Source of the DNA: an uncultured Alphaproteobacteria bacterium
GTDB lineage: Bacteria; Pseudomonadota; Alphaproteobacteria; UBA7985; CAJQQZ01
NCBI GenBank assembly: GCA_905480575.1
Contig: CAJQQZ010000057.1
Span: 1-58,020 of the forward strand
DNA: 58,020 nt
Reading direction: 5' to 3'
Each line of letters starts with the position of its first letter. The first letter of the stretch is position 1. The notes under the pieces are model-generated. The model saw only the letters and a program-made list of their open reading frames with translations. It made no database searches and had not been told where the DNA came from. Below, in pieces: positions 7,819 to 18,627 of the stretch. A program made the position numbers and the translations under genes.

Positions 7819-8754
7819 TTAGCCAAGATTGGCAAAGGCTTGAGCCTTGATGCCCGACCGCACGTCTTCGAGGATCAATGCCGCTTCTGAACCACGAATT
7901 TTCTCGATGTCATCTTGGTATTTGAGCACAACACCCAGGGTGTCCTGGATGGCTTGCGGATCGATAGCAACGTAGTCAAGTTGGACCAAGGCATCTGCCC
8001 AATCCAATGTCTCAGCAATACCCGGTTTCTTGTAAAGATCTTGCTTTCTCAGCTCCTGAACGAAAGCCACTAATTCTTTCGCCAGTTTCTCAGAGGCGTG
8101 AGGCGCTTTGGCTTTAACAATCGCCATTTCTCGCTCAGCATCAGGGTAATCCACCCAGTGATAGAAACAACGGCGTTTTAGGGCGTCATGAATTTCACGG
8201 GTGCGGTTCGAAGTAATGATAACAATCGGCGGTGTGCTCGCCTTGATCGTTCCCATCTCAGGGATCGAGATTTGGTAATCTGAAAGTACTTCAAGCAAGA
8301 AAGCTTCAAAGGGCTCATCTGTTCGGTCGAGTTCATCGATCAGCAATATTGGCGATTCTTCATCGCCGCCGGTCTCCAGCGCTTGTAGCAAAGGCCGCTT
8401 GATCAAAAATTCGTCAGAAAACAAGTCTTTAGATAAGGAATCTTTGTTCTTCTCGCCCGCTGCCTCCGCCAGACGGATTTCCATCATCTGACGCGGAAAG
8501 TTCCATTCGTAAACCGCTGATGAAACATCCAAGCCTTCATAACATTGTAACCGGACTAACCTTCGACCAAGGCTAGCAGATAGCACCTTAGCTATTTCCG
8601 TTTTCCCCACTCCGGCTTCGCCTTCAAGAAATAAAGGCCGACCTAATTTGAGCGTCAGATAGAGCACAGTAGCTAAGCTGCGATCAGCGACATAGCCTTC
8701 AGCCGTCAACAGATCCAACGTTTGATCAACATTTTTTGGTAAGGAGATGCTCAT
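7819..8754 (-). CDS. coxD: CoxD-like MoxR-family AAA+ ATPase
   Basis: A 311-residue AAA+ ATPase. It has Walker A GEAGVGKT at residues 45-52, Walker B ILLIDELDR near 136-144, and sensor 1 in VIITSNRTREIHDALKRR. MoxR-type ATPases are chaperones that pair with VWA proteins, here the adjacent CoxE, to mature metal enzymes. The start is set at MSISLPKNVDQ (8754); a longer frame to 8805 begins inside the hairpin that separates this gene from coxM and is unlikely. No good ribosome-binding site precedes the ATG, which suggests a processed leader or weak initiation. Confidence 0.9.
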   Translation of the reverse strand: MSISLPKNVDQTLDLLTAEGYVADRSLATVLYLTLKLGRPLFLEGEAGVGKTEIAKVLSASLGRRLVRLQCYEGLDVSSAVYEWNFPRQMMEIRLAEAAGEKNKDSLSKDLFSDEFLIKRPLLQALETGGDEESPILLIDELDRTDEPFEAFLLEVLSDYQISIPEMGTIKASTPPIVIITSNRTREIHDALKRRCFYHWVDYPDAEREMAIVKAKAPHASEKLAKELVAFVQELRKQDLYKKPGIAETLDWADALVQLDYVAIDPQAIQDTLGVVLKYQDDIEKIRGSEAALILEDVRSGIKAQAFANLG

Positions 8755-8761
8755 ACAACAG

Positions 8762-8788
8762 AAAAAGGGCGGCGTTAAACACCGCCCC
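8762..8788 (-). terminator. intrinsic terminator/attenuator between coxM and coxD
   Basis: Read on the minus strand, GGGCGGTG pairs with CGCCGCCC (8 bp with one G-T wobble, loop TTTAA), followed by five T residues. This is the form of a rho-independent terminator. It lies in the 54-bp gap between the end of coxM and the start of coxD, inside an otherwise tightly packed operon. It would end most transcripts after coxSLM and let a fraction continue into the maturation genes. Confidence 0.75.
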
Positions 8789-8808
8789 TTACACTTTCTT
8801 TTCAAATG

Positions 8809-9603
8809 TTAACCGCAGGCGTCGACCGCTCGTTTGGCCATAACACCAACCAAATGAGCGCGATACTCTGGTGATGCATGAATGTCTGAGTTCAAATCAT
8901 CAGCAGACACAGCAACGCCATCCAATGCCGAAGAAGAAAAATCGCCGTCTAAAGCGCTTTCCATCGCCGATGCCCTGAACACCGACGGACCAGCGCCGGT
9001 GACAGCAACACGGACACCGTCCGCGTTCTTGGCCACGAAGACCCCAACCATTGCATAACGAGACGCCGGGTTTGGGAACTTGGCATAGGCTGCCTTTTCG
9101 ACAAGAGGGAAGGAAACCGACGTTACAATCTCGTCTTCCGCCAACGCTGTCTCAAACATTTCAACGAAGAAATCTTCCGCCGGTATCTCCCGAGTATTGG
9201 TTTTGACAGTCGCACCCAGCGCCACCAATGCGGCTGGATAGTCAGCCGCTGGATCATTGTTAGAAATTGAACCGCCTAACGTACCTCTCGCACGAACCTG
9301 ACGGTCACCAATGCTTTCTGCTAAAGCGGCGAGCGCAGGAAGGTCTGACTGAATAAGTGCGCTAGAGGCAACCACAGAGTGCGATGTCATCGCCCCAATC
9401 TCAATTGCGTCAGCCCCTTCGGCCACACCAGCAATGCCGTCGATACCGTGAAGATCAATCAAATCTTCAGGCGCCGCAAGCCCTTGCTTCATCGTCGGCA
9501 ACATCGTCATGCCACCGGCTAGGAACTTACCGTCGTCTGACGCCTGCATATTAGCAACCGCTTCGTCAACACTGTTTGGCTTATGATAATCAAAGTTTTG
9601 CAT
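8809..9603 (-). CDS. coxM: CoxM-like FAD-binding subunit of a molybdenum hydroxylase
   Basis: Medium subunit (264 residues) that carries FAD and passes electrons from the iron-sulfur subunit to an acceptor. The FAD motifs are clear: FLAGGMTMLP at 27-36 and TLGGSISNNDPAADYPAA at 108-125, followed by the CO-dehydrogenase flavoprotein C-terminal domain. The length is slightly below the usual 280-300. It follows coxL with a 14-bp gap. Note that the order here is S-L-M, whereas well-studied form I clusters run M-S-L; the S-L-M order is usual for form II. Confidence 0.93.
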   Translation of the reverse strand: MQNFDYHKPNSVDEAVANMQASDDGKFLAGGMTMLPTMKQGLAAPEDLIDLHGIDGIAGVAEGADAIEIGAMTSHSVVASSALIQSDLPALAALAESIGDRQVRARGTLGGSISNNDPAADYPAALVALGATVKTNTREIPAEDFFVEMFETALAEDEIVTSVSFPLVEKAAYAKFPNPASRYAMVGVFVAKNADGVRVAVTGAGPSVFRASAMESALDGDFSSSALDGVAVSADDLNSDIHASPEYRAHLVGVMAKRAVDACG

Positions 9604-9617
9604 CTCTCAGCCCTCCC

Positions 9618-11990
9618 TTAGTTGTTTTCTTGCAGAGCGCGCCAAACACGTTCTGGCGTCGCCGGCATCTCAACAGTAACAGCTCCTGTTGCATCCGTGA
9701 TTGCGTTGATCAATGCTGCCGGAGCCGCAATAGCTCCTGCTTCACCGCACCCCTTCACCCCGAGTGGGTTGTGAGTACAAGCCGTTGTCGTCATATCAAC
9801 GCGGAAACTTGGCAGATCATCAGCTCTAGGCATGCAATAATCCATGTATGAACCCGTCACCAACTGACCTGAGTCTTTGTCGTAAACCGTGCCTTCCAAC
9901 AACGCCTGACCAACACCCTGAGCAATACCACCGTGGACCTGACCTTCAACTATCATCGGATTGATCACGTTTCCGAAGTCATCAACAGCCACCCAATCCA
10001 CGATCTCGGTTACACCCGTCGCCTCGTCGATTTCAACTTCGGCTATGTGTGTTCCGGCAGGATAGGTAAAGTTGCCAGGGTCATAGAAAGCTGTTTCATC
10101 CATACCTGGTTCAACGCCTTCTGGGTAATCATGAGGCACATAAGCCGCAAAGACGATTTCTTCCATCGCTTTAGACTTATCCGTTCCCGCGACCGTAAAG
10201 TTACCATCGGCGAACTCAATGTCCTCAACGGCTGCTTCAAGCAGATGAGCAGCAACCTTTTTGCCCTTTTCAATGATCTTATCGCAAGCCCTATCGATGG
10301 CAGAGCCACCAACAGCCAAGGATCTAGAACCATAGGTTCCCATGCCCATTGGAACTTTCGAAGTATCGCCGTGAACAACCTCGACGTTCTCGAACGGGAT
10401 GCCAAGCTTTGTGGCTGCCAGTTGAGCGAAGGCCGTCTCATGACCTTGTCCGTGGGAATGTGATCCCGTGAAGACAGAAACACTACCGGTCGCATTGAAG
10501 CGAACTTGCGCTGACTCCCACAAACCGACACCAGCACCAAGCGATCCAACGACCGCCGAAGGAGCTATGCCGCAAGCTTCGATATAGGCGGAGATGCCTA
10601 AGCCACGTTTCTTGCCATTGGCTTCTGACTTTGCCCGACGAGCTGGGAAACCAGCATAGTCAATCATCCCCATGGCCTTATCCAGAGAGGCCTCATAATT
10701 GCCTGTGTCATAAGTCAGAGCCACGGGCGTGTCATAAGGGAACTGATCAGGCTGTATGAAGTTCTTCCGTCTCAATTCAGCTGGGTCCACACCTAACTCA
10801 CGAGCCGCCGTTTCAACAATCCGTTCTACGACGAACGTAGCCTCCGGGCGTCCTGCTCCACGATAAGCATCTACAGCAACGGTATTGGTGAAAACTGCTT
10901 TAGTATTGCAGAAAATCACCGGCGTTGTGTATTGCCCAGCCAACAAAGTTGCATAGAGATATGTCGGAACAGAACTAGCGAACGTGGAAAGATAAGCCCC
11001 CATATTGGCTATTGTTTCGACTTTCAGCGCCGTGAACTTACCGTTCGCATCAAGGCCGAGCTTCACATGACTAACATGATCGCGACCGTGAGCGTCCGTC
11101 AGGAACGCTTCTGATCTAGTGGAAGTCCACTTAACGGGCCTGCCAATTTTCTTGGAAGCCCAAACACAGGTGGTTTCTTCCGCATAACAGAAGATCTTTG
11201 AACCAAATCCACCGCCTACGTCCGGTGCAATCACTTTTAACTTTGTCTCAGGAATTCCCAGAACAAACGCACAGAGAATAAGACGAAGCACGTGGGGGTT
11301 TTGACTGGTGGAGAAGCAAGTATACTCGCCAGTTGCCATATCGTATTCGCCGATGGCCGCTCTTGGCTCCATCGGATTAGGAACCAAGCGATTGTTGATA
11401 ATATCGAGTTCTGTAACGTGGGCCGAATTTGCGAGAGCTTTGTCCACGTCGGCTTCTTCGCCCAAAATCCAGTCATAACAAAGATTGCTTGGCGCTTCTG
11501 GATGAATTTCTGGACCTGACAGTGCAGAACCAGTATCAACGTTAGCCGCTAGAACTTCATAGTCCACTTCGACAAGTTCTGCTGCTGCTTGTGCTTCACT
11601 TAGGGTTTCCGCAATCACGACAGCAACCTGATCACCGACATGTTTGACGGTGTCGTGAGCCAAGGGTGGATGCGGTGGCGCTTTGTGGCCCTCCCCATGT
11701 CGATCAACGACGTTCCAGCCACAAATTAGGCTGCCGACTTCATCGGCCACCATATCTGCACCGGTTAGAATACTGACCACTCCAGAAGCCTGCGACGCTG
11801 CCGAGGTATCAACAGATCTGATTTTCGCATGTGCATGGGGGGAACGGACGAACACAGCATAAGTTTGCCCCATTCGATTTATGTCGTCAGTGTAAGTGCC
11901 TCTGCCGGTTAAGAAGCGAAAGTCTTCCTTACGTTGGACCGCATCACCTATTCCGCCTGAGGTAATTGTACCTGTATCTGGCATGATCAA
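9618..11990 (-). CDS. coxL: form II CoxL-like molybdopterin-binding catalytic subunit
   Basis: A 790-residue large subunit of the xanthine oxidase/CO dehydrogenase family. The active-site loop reads A375-Y-R-G-A-G-R381, which defines form II; form I CO dehydrogenases carry AYXCSFR with the copper-binding cysteine. Other family marks are DVGGGFGSK at about 258, [15 protein letters not shown] in the second half, and the C-terminal [11 protein letters not shown] with the catalytic glutamate. Without the cysteine a CO-oxidising Cu-S-Mo site is unlikely, so the true substrate may be an aldehyde, purine or other heterocycle. The start overlaps the coxS stop (ATGA), indicating coupled synthesis. Confidence 0.93.
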
Positions 11991-12454
11991 CCTCCCATCG
12001 CTTTAGCGCCAGCCTGAACAGACTTGACGATATTATGATATCCTGTACAGCGACAGATGTTGCCTTCCAGACCTTCCCGAATTTCGGTCTCAGAAATATC
12101 TGGGTTTCCCGCAACCAAATCCACCGCGCTCATCACCATCCCTGGGGTACAAAAACCGCACTGAAGGCCATGGTTCTGACGAAAAGCTTCCTGCATCGGA
12201 TGCAGCTCTTCACCTGTCGCTAGACCTTCGATAGTCGTAACTTCCGAACCGTCGACTTGCACAGCTAACATAGTGCAGGATTTAACGGATTTACCATCAA
12301 CGTGCACAACGCAGGAACCACATTGGCTTGTGTCACAGCCGACGTGCGTTCCCGTAAGTTTCTGATTTTCTCTGATGTAATCGACGAGCAAAGTCTTGGT
12401 TTCGACTTCACCGCTCACTGAACGCCCATTGAGCGTCAAGGAAATGCTTGGCAT
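11987..12454 (-). CDS. coxS: CoxS-like [2Fe-2S] subunit
   Basis: Small iron-sulfur subunit of 155 residues. Plant-type [2Fe-2S] cluster ligands are C40, C45, C48 and C60; the second, helical-domain cluster uses C99, C102, C134 and C136 (CGFCTPGM and CRCTGYHNI). It relays electrons from the molybdenum site of CoxL to the FAD of CoxM. The start codon at 12454 is preceded by a good Shine-Dalgarno sequence (AGGGAG), which is itself enclosed in a 10-bp hairpin, so translation of the whole structural operon may be gated here. Confidence 0.95.
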
Positions 12455-12456
12455 AA

Positions 12457-12501
12457 AAATCTCCCTATTTTTTGAGTTGACTAACTCTTTAAGGGAGATT
12501 T
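12457..12501 (-). promoter_or_regulatory. hairpin enclosing the coxS ribosome-binding site
   Basis: In the minus-strand transcript, AAATCTCCCT (12501-12492) is perfectly complementary to AGGGAGATTT (12466-12457), and the second arm contains the coxS Shine-Dalgarno AGGGAG. Between the arms a second perfect stem occurs, GAGTT-AGTC-AACTC (12487-12474). The whole would fold into a long bulged hairpin ending three bases before the ATG. This arrangement would hide the ribosome-binding site until melted or bound. It has no long U-run, so it is not a typical terminator. Confidence 0.6.
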
Positions 12502-12562
12502 ATCTGTTCTTATTTCTCCCCCGTGGAAGAAACATTAGCGCAAATCTGGCGTTTGACCAGAG

Positions 12563-13021
12563 CTATTCTGGATTTTCTTCTTCACCATTGATTACAGCGG
12601 CAAAGCGACTAAAGAACTTATCGGATAGTTTTTTGGCGGCTCCTCCTACCAACCGAGAACCAATCTGAGCTATTTTTCCACCGACTTGAGCGTCTACCAA
12701 GTAGATCAATTCCGTCCCATCATTATGCTCATTCAACGAAACATCAGCAGAACCCGTGGCAAAGCCAGCCAAGCCACCTTTACCTTCTCCGGTCAGGGTA
12801 TAAGAATGTGGAGGATTGAGATTCTCTAGGTTCACTTCGCCTGTAAATGACGCCTTCACCGGCCCAATTTTTGCCTTGATGACTGCGGTAAATTGAGTGT
12901 CAGAGATCTTTTCCAAACTTTCGCAGCCAGGAATAGCCTGCTGCAAAATAGCTGGGTCATTCATTGCCTTCCAGACTTCCTCCTTGGAGGCATTTATAAT
13001 GTAAGTCCCTTCCAATTTCAT
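12563..13021 (-). CDS. coxG: CoxG-like SRPBCC-domain protein
   Basis: A 152-residue protein of the CO dehydrogenase subunit G family (START/SRPBCC fold), recognised from MKLEGTYIINASKEEVWKAM, AIPGCESLEKI, KASFTGEVNLENL and VGGKIAQIGSRLVGGAAKKL. CoxG proteins are not part of the enzyme; they have been linked to membrane anchoring or quinone interaction. The gene lies 108 bp upstream of coxS on the same strand and 24 bp downstream of the PlsC-type gene, so it may share transcription with either. Confidence 0.88.
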   Translation of the reverse strand: MKLEGTYIINASKEEVWKAMNDPAILQQAIPGCESLEKISDTQFTAVIKAKIGPVKASFTGEVNLENLNPPHSYTLTGEGKGGLAGFATGSADVSLNEHNDGTELIYLVDAQVGGKIAQIGSRLVGGAAKKLSDKFFSRFAAVINGEEENPE

Positions 13022-13045: not shown

Positions 13046-13720
13046 CTATTGGGCGCCTTTTTTCTTACTTCCAAGGAAACCAGCATTTCTGCCTTCCATT
13101 GTCTCAAGGTATTCATGAATTTTACTAAACACTTCTTCTTCCGACAAAGAGGCTTCCAAAAAGAGCCCCGTGTCAAATCTCTTGTTTGGGTAATCTATTC
13201 CAACAACCAAAATGGGGACCTTTGCTTTAACTGCAATACGGTAGAAGCCAGTTTTTAAGACGCCATCACTTTTACGGGTGCCTTCGGGTGTGATCGCCAA
13301 AATCAATCGATCGGCGCTCTTAAAAGCCCTGACTGCATCACCAACAATGCCGTTTGCTGCTGAACGGTCAACAGGAATGCCGCCCAGAAATTTTAAGATG
13401 GGACCAAAAACTGGTACAAAAACTGACTTTTTGATGAGGAAGGAGAACTTGATCCCTACCGCATACATCAACATCATTCCAATCACCCAATCCCAGTTGG
13501 ACGTGTGAGGAGCGCCGATAGCGACAAACTTCGGACAATCAGGAATTTCACCTGTTACTTGCCAGCCCGAAAGTTTGAAGGCGAGACGTGCCAGGAACTT
13601 AGTGACGGCATTGCCTCTACGAGCCACATTTTTATTGCCGAGTTCAGGAACCACTGAAGTAAAAACCCTCAAATCCAATAGGAAGGATCGCATTTGCACT
13701 ATTTTTGGCAGTACCGCCAC
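13046..13720 (-). CDS. PlsC-type 1-acyl-glycerol-3-phosphate acyltransferase-like protein
   Basis: A 224-residue acyltransferase of the lysophospholipid group. The catalytic HxxxxD motif is present (APHTSNWDW), the third motif reads ITPEGTR, and GGIPVDRSA matches the substrate-binding block. The hydrophobic segment near residues 85-105 (MMLMYAVGIKFSFLI) suggests membrane association. The GTG at 13720 has a modest ribosome-binding site; ATG at 13693 is an alternative. It is divergent from the ACP/ketosynthase/P450 genes and reads toward coxG, and may belong functionally with the lipid genes. Acyl acceptor unknown. Confidence 0.85.
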   Translation of the reverse strand: MAVLPKIVQMRSFLLDLRVFTSVVPELGNKNVARRGNAVTKFLARLAFKLSGWQVTGEIPDCPKFVAIGAPHTSNWDWVIGMMLMYAVGIKFSFLIKKSVFVPVFGPILKFLGGIPVDRSAANGIVGDAVRAFKSADRLILAITPEGTRKSDGVLKTGFYRIAVKAKVPILVVGIDYPNKRFDTGLFLEASLSEEEVFSKIHEYLETMEGRNAGFLGSKKKGAQ

Positions 13721-13836: not shown

Positions 13837-14103
13837 ATGTCTAATGACATCAGTGTCGAGGATCGCGTTAAAGAGATCGTCACCAAATATATCAAGGCAG
13901 ATGATGGTTCCACTCCTGAATTGACCAGAGAAACCGAGCTTCAGACGGTCAACTTGGAATCATTGGACTTAATCGAAATTATTTTCGAAGTTGAAGACGA
14001 ATTTGATATCGATATCGAACAAGACGAAAAAACCGCCGAATTAAAAACGCTTGGTGATGTGCTCGATTGGTTAACGACCAACATCGAAGACCAGACCGCA
14101 TAA
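13837..14103 (+). CDS. acyl carrier protein (specialised)
   Basis: An acidic 88-residue protein with the ACP four-helix pattern. The phosphopantetheine serine is S42 in NLESLDLIEI; the usual DSL reads ESL here. Helix II then carries the acidic FEVEDEFDIDIEQD face that contacts partner enzymes. A good ribosome-binding site (GAGGG) precedes the ATG. It is too divergent from the housekeeping ACP sequence to be the fatty-acid-synthesis AcpP and is followed 13 bp later by its likely partner ketosynthase, as in NodF/NodE-like or AcpXL-type dedicated pairs. Confidence 0.9.
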   Translation: MSNDISVEDRVKEIVTKYIKADDGSTPELTRETELQTVNLESLDLIEIIFEVEDEFDIDIEQDEKTAELKTLGDVLDWLTTNIEDQTA

Positions 14104-14116
14104 TAGAAAGTCTTCG

Positions 14117-15325
14117 ATGCATCGTGTCGTCATAACCGGCGTCGGAACAATATCTGGCCTCGGACCCAATCTTAATGATTCATGGAACGCAGCACTATCT
14201 GGTAAAACGGCTATTGGCCAACTGGATATTCCGTCCATTCAACCACTTCGTCAGAAACTTGCCGCCCAAATACACAGCTACAAGCCTGAAGACCATTTCA
14301 GTGCTGGCGAATTGGCGCTCATCGACCGTTTCTCGCAGTTCATTATTCTCAGTGGCCGAGAAGCGATAGCAGATTCAGGCATTGATTTCTCCACAGATAT
14401 CGCTGAAGAAACGGCGGTTCTAACGGGTTCAGGCCTCGGAGGTTGGGAAACCATCAACGAATCAGCGAAAAAGGTTTTTTACGACCAGAAACCACGCGTT
14501 CATCCCTTTACCGTTCCTAAAATCATGCCAAGTGCCGGTTCCAGCCATCTCACGATGGAATATGGGATAACCGGACCGGCTTTCACAATTTCCAGCGCTT
14601 GCTCCTCTTCAGGACATGCAATCGGCGAAGCATTCGAAATGGTTCGGCGTGGCCGGGTCAAAGCCGCTGTTACTGGTGGTGGTGAAGCACCCTTGATTTA
14701 CGGTGGTATCATCCCTTGGCAAGCTTTGAGAGTTATGTCCAGCACAGCCTGTAGGCCTTTCTGCAAAGATAGAGATGGCATGATTTTGGGCGAAGGCGCA
14801 GGCATGCTCGTTTTAGAAGAATATGAGTACGCCAAATCACGCGGTGCGCGCATTTATGGTGAACTTTGTGGCTATGGTTTGTCTTCGGACGCTGGCGACA
14901 TTGTTGACCCCTCACCCGATGGCGCTGCTAAATCTGTTCGGAAATGTCTTGTGGACGCTCAGCTGAACCCGGAAGATGTGACATACATTAACGCCCACGG
15001 TACCGGCACAACTGCAAACGACAGAACAGAAACCTCGGCTATTCGACAGGTTTTCGGATCAGCAGTGGATGATGTTTGGGTATCGTCGACAAAATCACTT
15101 CACGGTCATGCCTTAGGCGGTGCAGGTGCAATTGAACTAGCGCTGACGGTTAGAGCACTTGAAAGCGGTATTTTACCACCGACAGTTAACTTTACTGAAG
15201 CTGATGAAGAGTGTCAGTTGCGCCACGTTGCAAACGAACCAGTAGAAACAAAAGTAAAAGCGGTTATATCCAATTCTTTTGCTTTCGGCGGTTTGAATGC
15301 CACTTTGGCTATCAAAGCTATTTAG
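14117..15325 (+). CDS. beta-ketoacyl-ACP synthase (KAS II/NodE-like)
   Basis: A 402-residue condensing enzyme with a complete active site: nucleophile C162 (SSACSSSGHA), H294 (NAHGTGT), K326 and H329 (TKSLHGHALGG). It elongates an acyl-ACP by two carbons using malonyl-ACP. The length and layout match FabF/NodE-like enzymes. It follows the dedicated ACP by 13 bp and precedes the P450 by 28 bp on the same strand, so the product is probably a chain that is then oxidised and transferred by the next two gene products. Confidence 0.93.
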   Translation: MHRVVITGVGTISGLGPNLNDSWNAALSGKTAIGQLDIPSIQPLRQKLAAQIHSYKPEDHFSAGELALIDRFSQFIILSGREAIADSGIDFSTDIAEETAVLTGSGLGGWETINESAKKVFYDQKPRVHPFTVPKIMPSAGSSHLTMEYGITGPAFTISSACSSSGHAIGEAFEMVRRGRVKAAVTGGGEAPLIYGGIIPWQALRVMSSTACRPFCKDRDGMILGEGAGMLVLEEYEYAKSRGARIYGELCGYGLSSDAGDIVDPSPDGAAKSVRKCLVDAQLNPEDVTYINAHGTGTTANDRTETSAIRQVFGSAVDDVWVSSTKSLHGHALGGAGAIELALTVRALESGILPPTVNFTEADEECQLRHVANEPVETKVKAVISNSFAFGGLNATLAIKAI

Positions 15326-15353
15326 GAACTACTTTTAGCAGGCTCCCTCGATA

Positions 15354-16727
15354 ATGAGTGCCAAACGAAAACTACTAACTCCACCGATGCCTAGTGCATC
15401 AAAGCATGCTTTGCCGCCTTTCAAAGCTTTGAGAGTCGCGAAACGTAACGTCATAGCAGTTTGGACTAGGCAAGCTTATTTTGCTCCGTTCATGGCGGAG
15501 AAATATCTCTTTCGCTGGATGTATGTTGCTAACAATCCAGATGCTGTGCGTCATGTTTTAGTTTCAAACGCAGCCAACTACGAAAAAAGCATCGCCGTCA
15601 AAAGAGCCCTCCAGCCGCTTGTTGGCAATGGCATGTTTGTTTCAAACGGAGAAACTTGGCACAAACAACGACGTATCGCTATTCCGGCTTTTCATCACAA
15701 ACGGATTCAATCCTTTGGCGACTTCATGTCGAAAGGCATTGAGACATTGATGGAAGAGTGGGCAAAAAAACCTGACGGTTCAACAATCGCTATTGATGAA
15801 GAAATGGCAAACATAACAGCAGGTGTGGTTTGCCAGGCTATGTTCTCTGAAACTCTCGGAGAAAGAGGCCGGATCGTTTATGACGGCTTTTCAGAGTATC
15901 AAGCAAATCTCACGCAAATTGATTATGCAGAAATGTTAGGCCTTCCCAGCATTTTCTCCGCGTGGCCAAGTTTTTCCTCCAGACGAGCAGCAAAAAGAAT
16001 TCGTCAGGTTATCGAAGAAATAATTGGAGACCGCTGGCAGGACAAAGAGGATCGCGGGGATTTCCTTTCATCTCTCCTTTTGACAAAGGACAGTGAAACC
16101 GGAAAAGGACTGAGTGAAACGGAAATTCGGGATGAGATGGCTGTCATTTTTCTGGCAGGCCATGAGACCACCGCGATCACTATCTGCTGGGCTCTCTATT
16201 TGATTTCACAAGCATCCGATGTCGAAGAACGCCTCTTAGCCGAAGTAAAAGAAGTTCTTAACGGAAGAACAGCCACCTTTGCTGACATCAATAACCTGAA
16301 ATACACCAGAGCTGTGGTAGATGAGGTTCTGCGCCTCTATCCTCCAGTCCCAGTTTTTTCTCGCACCGCCGTAGAAGATGACATAGTCGACGGGCACGAA
16401 ATTCAAGCCGGATCAAACATGATGGTGTCTCCATGGTTGTTGCACCGCCATCGGGCACTCTGGAAAAACCCTAATCGGTTTGATCCAGATCGCTTTTTCT
16501 TGAAAGAGAAACGTTCACACTCGAAATACGCCTATATTCCCTTTGGCGTTGGACCGAGAACCTGTTTGGGTGCCTCATTTGCATTGACAGAGGCTGTCAT
16601 TATGTTGGCATCCATTGTTCAAAAATTTTCACTCACATTGCCCAAGGATAAAGACGTCCAACCTGTCGCCAAGCTAAGTCTCCGCCCTCATCCGGATCTG
16701 CCTATGATCCTTCACAAAAGAAACTGA
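15354..16727 (+). CDS. cytochrome P450
   Basis: A 457-residue haem-thiolate monooxygenase. The I-helix motif AGHETTA is at 258-264, the ExxR of the K-helix is E314-V-L-R317, and the haem ligand is C394 in FGVGPRTCLGA. No membrane anchor is obvious, so it is a soluble bacterial type, though the N-terminal layout and total length resemble fatty-acid hydroxylases (CYP4/CYP102-like). It is sandwiched between an ACP/ketosynthase pair and an acyltransferase, suggesting an acyl-ACP or acyl-lipid substrate. No redox partner gene is nearby. Confidence 0.93.
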   Translation: MSAKRKLLTPPMPSASKHALPPFKALRVAKRNVIAVWTRQAYFAPFMAEKYLFRWMYVANNPDAVRHVLVSNAANYEKSIAVKRALQPLVGNGMFVSNGETWHKQRRIAIPAFHHKRIQSFGDFMSKGIETLMEEWAKKPDGSTIAIDEEMANITAGVVCQAMFSETLGERGRIVYDGFSEYQANLTQIDYAEMLGLPSIFSAWPSFSSRRAAKRIRQVIEEIIGDRWQDKEDRGDFLSSLLLTKDSETGKGLSETEIRDEMAVIFLAGHETTAITICWALYLISQASDVEERLLAEVKEVLNGRTATFADINNLKYTRAVVDEVLRLYPPVPVFSRTAVEDDIVDGHEIQAGSNMMVSPWLLHRHRALWKNPNRFDPDRFFLKEKRSHSKYAYIPFGVGPRTCLGASFALTEAVIMLASIVQKFSLTLPKDKDVQPVAKLSLRPHPDLPMILHKRN

Positions 16728-16738
16728 ACGTTAAAGCT

Positions 16739-17641
16739 ATGAGGTTCCGCCACACGAAGTTTGGCCAAGTTGTAAGATACCAAGTGGTTCATCCACTGCT
16801 TGGGCTATTAGTACATGGTCTCTATTACTTAGGGACCTGCATGCCTGTGGACTTCGCCTCTAATCTTGGCGGCTTCATGGGCAGAAGACTTGGCCCTTCT
16901 CTTGGAAAGAAATCTCATAAACGCGCGGAGAAAAACCTTCGTTTATGTTTCCCTGAGAAATCTGACAAAGAAATCAATACTATCCTTGGTGATATGTGGG
17001 AGCATATCGGTCGAGTTGGCGGCGAGTTCCCGGTACTTGCGAAAATCACCAAACAAGATCGGATCAAGATTGTTGGCCAAGATCTTATCATGGAGAGTTG
17101 GACCGAAGGCAGACCAACGTTATTCTTCAGCGGCCACATGGGCAATTGGGAGTTAGCACCTGCGCTAGGTCAGCGTTGGGACATGGATATGGTCGCGATT
17201 TACCAGCCGCCAACCAATCGCTTTATCGATCGATTGACCAAAAAGATAAGACTCAACATTGGCCTCACTATTGTTCCTCGCGGACCAGACGCTGTTGATA
17301 AAGCTTTTAGAAAACTCAAAAATGGCGGCACACTGGCTTTCCTAGCCGATCAGCGAAGAACCGGCGGTGAATTGGTACCTTTTTTTGGGCACCCGGCGAA
17401 AACAATTGTTACCCTTGGTCAAATCGCCATGCGGTTCAACTGCCAAGTTTATCCTGTCAGAATCGTTCGAACCAAGGGTGCAAACTTTGAGCTTCGATGT
17501 TATCCAGCTTTCGAATTCCAGCCTAGTGGAGATAGAAAGAAAGACGCTCTAGAGTACATGGAGCTCGTAAATATTTTGTACGAAGGCTGGATCCGTGAAT
17601 TTCCAGAGCAGTGGCTATGGCCGCACCGTCGGTGGCGCTAG
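16739..17641 (+). CDS. LpxL/HtrB-like lysophospholipid/lauroyl acyltransferase
   Basis: A 300-residue membrane-associated acyltransferase of the LpxL/LpxM group. The catalytic H-x4-E is H133-MGNW-E138, with an N-terminal hydrophobic stretch (about 14-36), the FLADQRRTGG block, and the C-terminal PEQWLWPHRRWR that closes many family members. LpxL-type enzymes move an acyl chain from acyl-ACP to lipid A or a related lipid. Starting 11 bp after the P450, it is the natural final step of the ACP-KAS-P450 set. The convergent Gfo/Idh/MocA gene ends five bases beyond it. Confidence 0.88.
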   Translation: MRFRHTKFGQVVRYQVVHPLLGLLVHGLYYLGTCMPVDFASNLGGFMGRRLGPSLGKKSHKRAEKNLRLCFPEKSDKEINTILGDMWEHIGRVGGEFPVLAKITKQDRIKIVGQDLIMESWTEGRPTLFFSGHMGNWELAPALGQRWDMDMVAIYQPPTNRFIDRLTKKIRLNIGLTIVPRGPDAVDKAFRKLKNGGTLAFLADQRRTGGELVPFFGHPAKTIVTLGQIAMRFNCQVYPVRIVRTKGANFELRCYPAFEFQPSGDRKKDALEYMELVNILYEGWIREFPEQWLWPHRRWR

Positions 17642-17646
17642 CAACC

Positions 17647-18627
17647 TCACAGGACGGCAGTCATTCCTGAAAAAGACGCATTGATTTTCAAACTAGCTTC
17701 CAATGCTCTCAATCCATCCATTCCAGAGACAACAGGCGCAGCTCTCGTCGCTATAGATTGGGCGAACGAGTCAGCCTCTAACTGAAGGTTATCCGTTTTA
17801 GGGAAAGACTTCTCAATCCCGCTCCATTCCAACTCTTCGCCGCCACGCAAACGCTGGTCGGTCTTTACAAATGAGTTAGCACCTAGATCTAGGGTCATAT
17901 AAGAGCCAGCCTGATAAACCTTCATCACACGGTCAATTTTAGGGCTCACACGGCTAGCCGTGATCGTTGCCAAACAACCGCTCTCGAATACGATCCAAGC
18001 CTTGGCCATATCTTCCTCGTCACTCATTAAAGGATAGCCAACGGCCTCGATAGATTTAATCGGAGAATCGGCCAAGTGAAGAACCAAATCAATATCATGG
18101 ATCATCATATCCAACACGACATTGACATCGGTCCCGCGCTTTTTGAACGGAGCCATACGTTCGCACTCAATGAAACGAGGTTGCTTCAGGTGTTCGCGTA
18201 AAACACCGATAGCAGGGTTAAAACGCTCCAGATGTCCAACTTGTAAAACAGACTTCTTCTTTTCAGCGAGATCAATAAGATCTTGAGCCTCCCCAAGGCT
18301 TTGGCACATAGGTTTTTCAACCAACACGTCCGCGCCTGAATCTAGAAAATCGCGCCCAATGGAATAATGGAACCGGGTTGGTACAGCGACGGATACACCA
18401 TCCACTTTTCCCATCAAATCTCGATGATCAGAATAGGCCTGGACACCTAGCTCCTTCGCAAGCCTGCCAACACTATCACTGTTGGGATCGCAGACACCAA
18501 CCAGTTCAGCATGAGGCGACTGGCTAAACTTTCTGGCATGAAGGGACCCGAAATACCCTGATCCAATGACAGCTATTCGAGGTTTATTGGCTTGTTTTTG
18601 TTGTTCCACGTGGACCTCAAATTTCAC
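17647..18627 (-). CDS. Gfo/Idh/MocA-family oxidoreductase
   Basis: A 326-residue NAD(P)-dependent dehydrogenase. The N-terminal Rossmann motif is AVIGSGYFGSLHARKF, followed by the conserved VEKPMC with the catalytic lysine and the motif VGHLERFNPA. The latter is shared with sugar-nucleotide 3-dehydrogenases such as the UDP-GlcNAc 3-dehydrogenase GnnA, which prepares amide-linked lipid A. Given the LpxL-like neighbour, a sugar-nucleotide or lipid A role is an attractive inference but not proven. No paired aminotransferase (gnnB) is seen here. The start at 18627 is divergent from the MocR regulator. Confidence 0.82.
   Translation of the reverse strand: MKFEVHVEQQKQANKPRIAVIGSGYFGSLHARKFSQSPHAELVGVCDPNSDSVGRLAKELGVQAYSDHRDLMGKVDGVSVAVPTRFHYSIGRDFLDSGADVLVEKPMCQSLGEAQDLIDLAEKKKSVLQVGHLERFNPAIGVLREHLKQPRFIECERMAPFKKRGTDVNVVLDMMIHDIDLVLHLADSPIKSIEAVGYPLMSDEEDMAKAWIVFESGCLATITASRVSPKIDRVMKVYQAGSYMTLDLGANSFVKTDQRLRGGEELEWSGIEKSFPKTDNLQLEADSFAQSIATRAAPVVSGMDGLRALEASLKINASFSGMTAVL

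Follow-up and report, generated by a model that had tools for sequence, protein, structure and literature searches.

The window analysed here is a 58,020-nucleotide stretch of DNA from an uncultured alphaproteobacterium. At 13837-17641 it carries four genes on the plus strand that code for an acyl carrier protein (ACP), a beta-ketoacyl-ACP synthase (KS), a cytochrome P450 and an LpxL-type late acyltransferase (Table 1). The first-pass annotation, made from the letters alone, had described them as collinear genes for an ACP, a condensing enzyme, a P450 and an LpxL-like protein, with gaps of 11-28 bp, and the open reading frames, spacing, Pfam matches and motifs all agree. The gaps are 13 bp between ACP and KS, 28 bp between KS and P450, and 11 bp between P450 and LpxL. 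The ACP has its serine within the motif NLESLDL, and the catalytic Cys, His and His of the KS lie in SACSS, HGTGT and GHALG. The P450 has the I-helix motif AGHETT at 268, ExxR as EVLR at 324 and the heme-thiolate Cys in FGVGPRTCLG at 397. The LpxL has its H-x4-D/E motif as HMGNWE at residue 133. The transcription unit is likely to be exactly ACP-KS-P450-LpxL, because the PlsC-type gene on one side is divergent and the Gfo/Idh/MocA gene on the other is convergent. A promoter and terminator scan of the four-gene locus gave nothing above chance level.

Table 1. Genes of the locus and its flanks (window positions), and related gene sets in other genomes
Feature	Position	Strand	Length	Evidence or remarks
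ACP gene	13837-14103	+	88 aa	Pfam PP-binding PF00550, 5e-5; Ser in NLESLDL; KS adjoining also in relatives
KS gene (NodE / LpxD-linked family)	14117-15325	+	402 aa	Pfam ketoacyl-synt N and C; Cys-His-His intact
Cytochrome P450 gene, LpxL-linked branch	15354-16727	+	457 aa	PF00067, 3.6e-87; tree; motifs
LpxL-type lipid A late acyltransferase gene	16739-17641	+	300 aa	PF03279 (Lip_A_acyltrans), 5.6e-48
PlsC-type acyltransferase gene	13046-13720	-		divergent neighbour; PF01553, 2.9e-14
Gfo/Idh/MocA oxidoreductase gene	17647-18627	-		convergent neighbour of LpxL
P450-LpxL pair, genome G090				4-nt overlap; 2OG-Fe(II) oxygenase gene upstream
P450-LpxL pair, genome G198				genes overlap
P450-LpxL pair, genome G630				13 bp gap
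P450-LpxL pair, Shinella sp. WSC3-e pgSHIWSC3				4-nt overlap; LpxL annotated 'lipid A biosynthesis lauroyl acyltransferase'
P450-LpxL pair, Rhizobium tropici CIAT 899 (bean symbiont) pRtrCIAT899c (L228: P450 7001-8422, LpxL-type 8419-9414)				4-nt overlap
LpxD-ACP-KS set, Paracoccus ferrooxidans pFER4	L229, 5461-8209

The window genome (G000) is 99.8% complete. The complete four-gene order is also found in a second species of its genus (G001, contig CAJQQJ010000382.1 of a metagenome-assembled genome), with identities of 97% for ACP, 93% for KS, 84% for P450 and 78% for LpxL, and this congener was the only match in a P450 search across genome contigs. The order in G001 is weak evidence by itself because the flanking genes are syntenic there as well. 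The sequences show purifying selection on each of the four genes: between the two species pS is about 0.8 (synonymous sites saturated) and pN is 0.03-0.16. The flanking PlsC-type gene, which was misaligned, is left out of this calculation. Since the order is shared with the congener and selection is purifying, the set is more than a chance arrangement. Conservation of the gene order had been named as a check on the original reading, and it holds in the second species but not outside the genus, where the halves ACP-KS and P450-LpxL recur separately.

The ACP-KS pair

Of the 385 genomes of the class that were searched, 27, the window's included, have a KS of this family at E 1e-104 or better. 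The others share 42-54% identity with the window KS, which for the most part exceeds the FabF background of close to 40%. An ACP gene adjoins the KS at most of the 31 loci examined (a few of them weaker than that threshold), and at 18 of the 31 the pair is accompanied by a hexapeptide acyltransferase gene, LpxD; all five hexapeptide acyltransferases tested pass the LpxD equivalog cut-off. In a 42-row tree the window KS falls together with NodE and the LpxD-linked KSs, and FabF and FabB lie apart across a starred branch. The family has plasmid members too, namely an ACP-KS pair adjoining nodABC in Sinorhizobium fredii, which is NodF-NodE, and an LpxD-ACP-KS set in Paracoccus. There are no nod genes among the annotated window neighbours at 12.5-23.3 kb. 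These comparisons make the ACP-KS pair a module of the NodFE kind, whose most frequent companions are lipid A genes. The idea that a dedicated ACP and KS belong to a lipid modification locus survives in part: the pair is tied to lipid A genes, but mostly with LpxD and not with P450-LpxL. The LpxD-ACP-KS sets suggest that modules like NodFE are used more broadly in lipid A, a use of which we know no description.

Three genomes of one genus (G097, G377 and G300) have the order LpxB-LpxD-ACP-KS (L086 4956-11079, L092 3848-12453, L093). In G097 and G377, where the contig extends further, a Gfo/Idh/MocA homologue and MsbA lie close to it. In G097, which also has a complete lpxD-fabZ-lpxA-lpxI-lpxB cluster (L155), the set is possibly a second lipid A-like pathway. 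In a family with a Paracoccus-like neighbourhood (G032, G163, G260, G338) the LpxD beside the ACP-KS pair is the only LpxD found (L084, L087, L091, L094). Amide-linked 3-oxo chains occur in the lipid A of Rhodobacter and Paracoccus, and an ACP-KS pair without its own ketoreductase might explain them; a literature search on 3-oxo lipid A chains returned nothing. At two further loci (L088 2860-5963, L097 9735-12849) the KS lies downstream of acetoin/2-oxoacid dehydrogenase-like genes, which include a lipoyl-domain alpha/beta hydrolase and transketolase-type subunits, and LpxD is not in that place.

The P450-LpxL pair

The nearest relatives of the window P450 outside its genus are 35-44% identical to it and nearly all alphaproteobacterial. 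Most of this wider family has varied neighbours, with neither KS nor LpxL partners, so we reject the idea that the P450 is tied to a KS in all genomes. One branch behaves differently. In three genomes (G090, G198 and G630), in Shinella and in R. tropici an LpxL-type gene lies immediately downstream of the P450 on the same strand, as it does in the window. The G630 P450 and the R. tropici LpxL, used as queries, both retrieved one and the same group of eight plasmid records from Rhizobium and Shinella, in which the two matches are adjacent. In a 93-row P450 tree, 7 of the 93 are LpxL-linked, and all 7 fall inside a single 10-row fork (SH-aLRT 87) within a starred 24-row set. The linkage label needs 3 changes on this tree against a shuffled mean of 6.9, and 0 of 500 shuffles came as low, with the reservation that the 10-row fork is not itself starred and that near-copies favour the shuffle test. 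We take this as good but not final evidence that one LpxL-linked P450 subfamily exists. The first-pass annotation had made the partners of the P450 a second check; one subfamily does travel with LpxL-type genes, but the wider family keeps unrelated company. Among the sampled genera of the class, 5 have a P450 from this fork and 3 of these also have the KS family, against 23 of 277 overall (hypergeometric p 0.0045, post hoc and with phylogeny ignored). The open-access literature searched held no relevant paper on P450-LpxL pairing or experiments on such pairs, and to our knowledge no P450 acts in lipid A acylation. About 5.6 kb upstream of its pair, the Shinella plasmid has a gene for a type I polyketide synthase (L227 1-1397).

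Could the P450 be a mere passenger in the operon, acting on something other than the chain that the ACP, KS and LpxL handle? The varied neighbours outside the linked branch would fit, as would the 3 of 10 fork members without LpxL linkage. We find this very doubtful, since the P450 gene is directly adjacent to LpxL genes of two clades in several families and the genes frequently overlap.

A different alternative concerns timing. LpxO-type dioxygenases oxidise secondary chains after transfer, and the P450 could work in a similar way: the chain attached by LpxL would be an ordinary or an elongated one, and oxidation of the acylated lipid by the P450 would follow at the inner membrane. This would suit a subfamily that is coupled to LpxL-type genes of two clades far more widely than to ACP-KS, and the pairs of R. 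tropici and Shinella have no ACP-KS beside them. But the window operon starts with a dedicated ACP and KS, which would be superfluous for an oxidase that acts after transfer, and we consider this order of events unlikely.

A putative lipid A acyl-chain module

A search with PF03279 finds a single gene in G000 and a single gene in G001, in both cases the operon LpxL; the search did not extend to LpxJ, a late acyltransferase that belongs to a different family (PMC6148475). On a separate contig G000 has bamA-skp-lpxD-fabZ-lpxA-lpxI-lpxB (bamA, skp, lpxI and fabZ named from sequence, without a family scan). Because it is the sole PF03279 gene in a genome with lpxD-fabZ-lpxA-lpxI-lpxB, the window LpxL is, on the simplest view, the housekeeping enzyme for secondary acylation of lipid A. 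In the LpxL tree it lies, with that of the congener, among ordinary LpxLs.

We suggest that the operon works as an acyl-chain module for lipid A: the P450 would oxidise a chain built on the operon's own ACP, and LpxL would attach it to lipid A. We see the chances of this as about even. The NodE-like KS would condense a chain carried on the dedicated ACP. No ketoreductase, dehydratase or enoyl reductase is encoded within the operon, so these activities would be supplied by housekeeping fatty-acid synthesis. The P450 would then oxidise the chain, most likely by hydroxylation and probably as the acyl-ACP, and LpxL would pass the oxidised chain on to a precursor of lipid A, where it would form a secondary acyl chain. 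The order of these steps, the kind and position of oxidation, the ACP-bound substrate and the acceptor, this last with good support, are what we infer. The links in support are of the KS and ACP to lpx genes, of the P450 to LpxL, and of LpxL, as the sole one found, to lipid A. NodFE is described as necessary for alpha,beta-unsaturated chains (PMC3557214), so an ACP-KS pair can yield unusual chains without very-long-chain elongation. The broader claim, that the operon tailors the chain of an outer-membrane lipid in an oxygen-dependent way, is likely. The narrower one is that the P450 is a committed lipid A step, oxidising the chain on the dedicated ACP for LpxL to place, with oxygen-dependent secondary chains as the product and P450-LpxL pairs bringing a similar trait to rhizobia. 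That we put forward tentatively, with somewhat less confidence than an even chance.

Some of our findings weigh against this proposal. Only one genus is known to have all four genes in this order. The other P450-linked LpxLs form a divergent clade (100/100) apart from the window's, so one P450 branch pairs with two kinds of LpxL. In two genomes, G090 and G204, nothing resembling LpxA or LpxD matches better than 4e-5, while all 18 other genomes searched have an LpxD match of 1e-45 or better. Both are 99% complete and still carry LpxL-type genes, the P450 and the KS-ACP pair, with an LptD gene near the pair (L085 3454-10101, L082 7463-13877, L153 9700-12648). The acceptor in G090 is probably not lipid A, and in the two genomes it can hardly be ordinary lipid A. 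Since they lack detectable LpxA and LpxD, P450-LpxL outside the window genus may serve another lipid. The pairs, perhaps the window's among them, would then acylate and oxidise some other envelope lipid, such as a glycolipid, a sphingolipid-like lipid or an amino lipid. The LpxLs of G090 and G204 share the divergent clade with the remaining P450-linked LpxLs, which favours such an acceptor. The window genome, however, has a lipid A cluster and its only LpxL-family gene groups with ordinary LpxLs, and we think this explanation quite improbable.

Returning to the lipid A module, the original interpretation of the locus is partly supported and its direction was right. Of the new evidence, the recurrence of the P450-LpxL pair and the LpxD-ACP-KS sets weigh most, and an annotation from the letters alone had no way of seeing either. 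Lipid A acyl chains set the rigidity of the outer membrane and how a host senses the bacterium, and if the proposal is true these chains would include oxygen-dependent secondary ones, with a similar trait in rhizobia. The presence of a P450-LpxL pair in the tractable symbiont R. tropici CIAT 899 makes the idea directly testable.

Flanking genes and comparison with known systems

The flanks had been called a PlsC-type acyltransferase and a sugar-nucleotide-type dehydrogenase, and the PF01553 and Gfo/Idh/MocA assignments bear this out; for the latter the nearest NCBIfam model is UDP-GlcNAc 3-dehydrogenase, with a score under the model cut-off. The start of the PlsC-type gene is 116 bp from that of the ACP gene, and nothing links it with the set. 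The Gfo/Idh/MocA gene is 5 bp from LpxL. It may be a member of the set, and its position is more than incidental because its protein is 47-48% identical to the homologues beside the KS in G097 and G377. Beside the set, at 8809-13021 on the minus strand, lies a carbon monoxide dehydrogenase-type block that the congener has kept too. It contains a CoxG-family gene (PF06240) and, judged by sequence, genes for the large subunit of a molybdenum hydroxylase and for FAD and iron-sulphur subunits.

The obvious comparison is with the rhizobial cluster for the very-long acyl chain of lipid A, acpXL-fabZXL-fabF2XL-fabF1XL-adhXL-lpxXL (PMC11901934, PMC5613085), which R. tropici CIAT 899 also carries on its chromosome (PMC3557214). 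Like the window, this cluster unites a dedicated ACP, a condensing enzyme, an oxidoreductase and an LpxL-family acyltransferase, the last gene being of the LpxL family in both. The position before lpxXL is taken in A. fabrum by an alcohol dehydrogenase gene (adh) with a 4 bp overlap (PMC11901934) and in the window by the P450. The window has a single KS where the cluster has two, lacks FabZ and alcohol dehydrogenase and has a P450, and its ACP and KS fit other families better. Between 13046 and 18627 there is one KS and no dehydratase. NCBIfam PRK06508 (NF005079), annotated merely 'acyl carrier protein' and taken by us to be AcpXL-type, is not among the matches of the window ACP at E 1e-3. We therefore reject membership in this cluster, as the ACP and KS families differ and FabZ is absent. 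A role for the P450 as a general (omega-1)-hydroxylase of very-long-chain acids is likewise unsupported, since the Agrobacterium and Bradyrhizobium clusters have no P450 (PMC11901934, PMC5613085). A sphingolipid operon is also rejected; unlike in AcpR systems (PMC9386255), no serine palmitoyltransferase or acyl-ACP synthetase gene adjoins the set.

Three other systems each share a part of the design. NodF-NodE, which serves the Nod factor acyl chain, is an adjacent ACP-KS pair, and NodE sits in the window KS clade apart from FabF; but NodFE feeds NodA, and in the window P450 and LpxL follow with no nodABC alongside. The LpxD-ACP-KS sets, as on pFER4 of Paracoccus ferrooxidans, have the same KS family, an adjoining ACP and a lipid A acyltransferase gene next door. 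There the acyltransferase is LpxD, for primary N-acylation, whereas the window has a P450 and LpxL, for secondary O-acylation. The pairs of R. tropici CIAT 899 and Shinella sp. WSC3-e have the same P450 branch immediately upstream of an LpxL-type gene, but no ACP-KS alongside and an LpxL from the divergent clade. By this comparison we believe the window set is a new version of a known design: a dedicated ACP and KS joined to a late acyltransferase.

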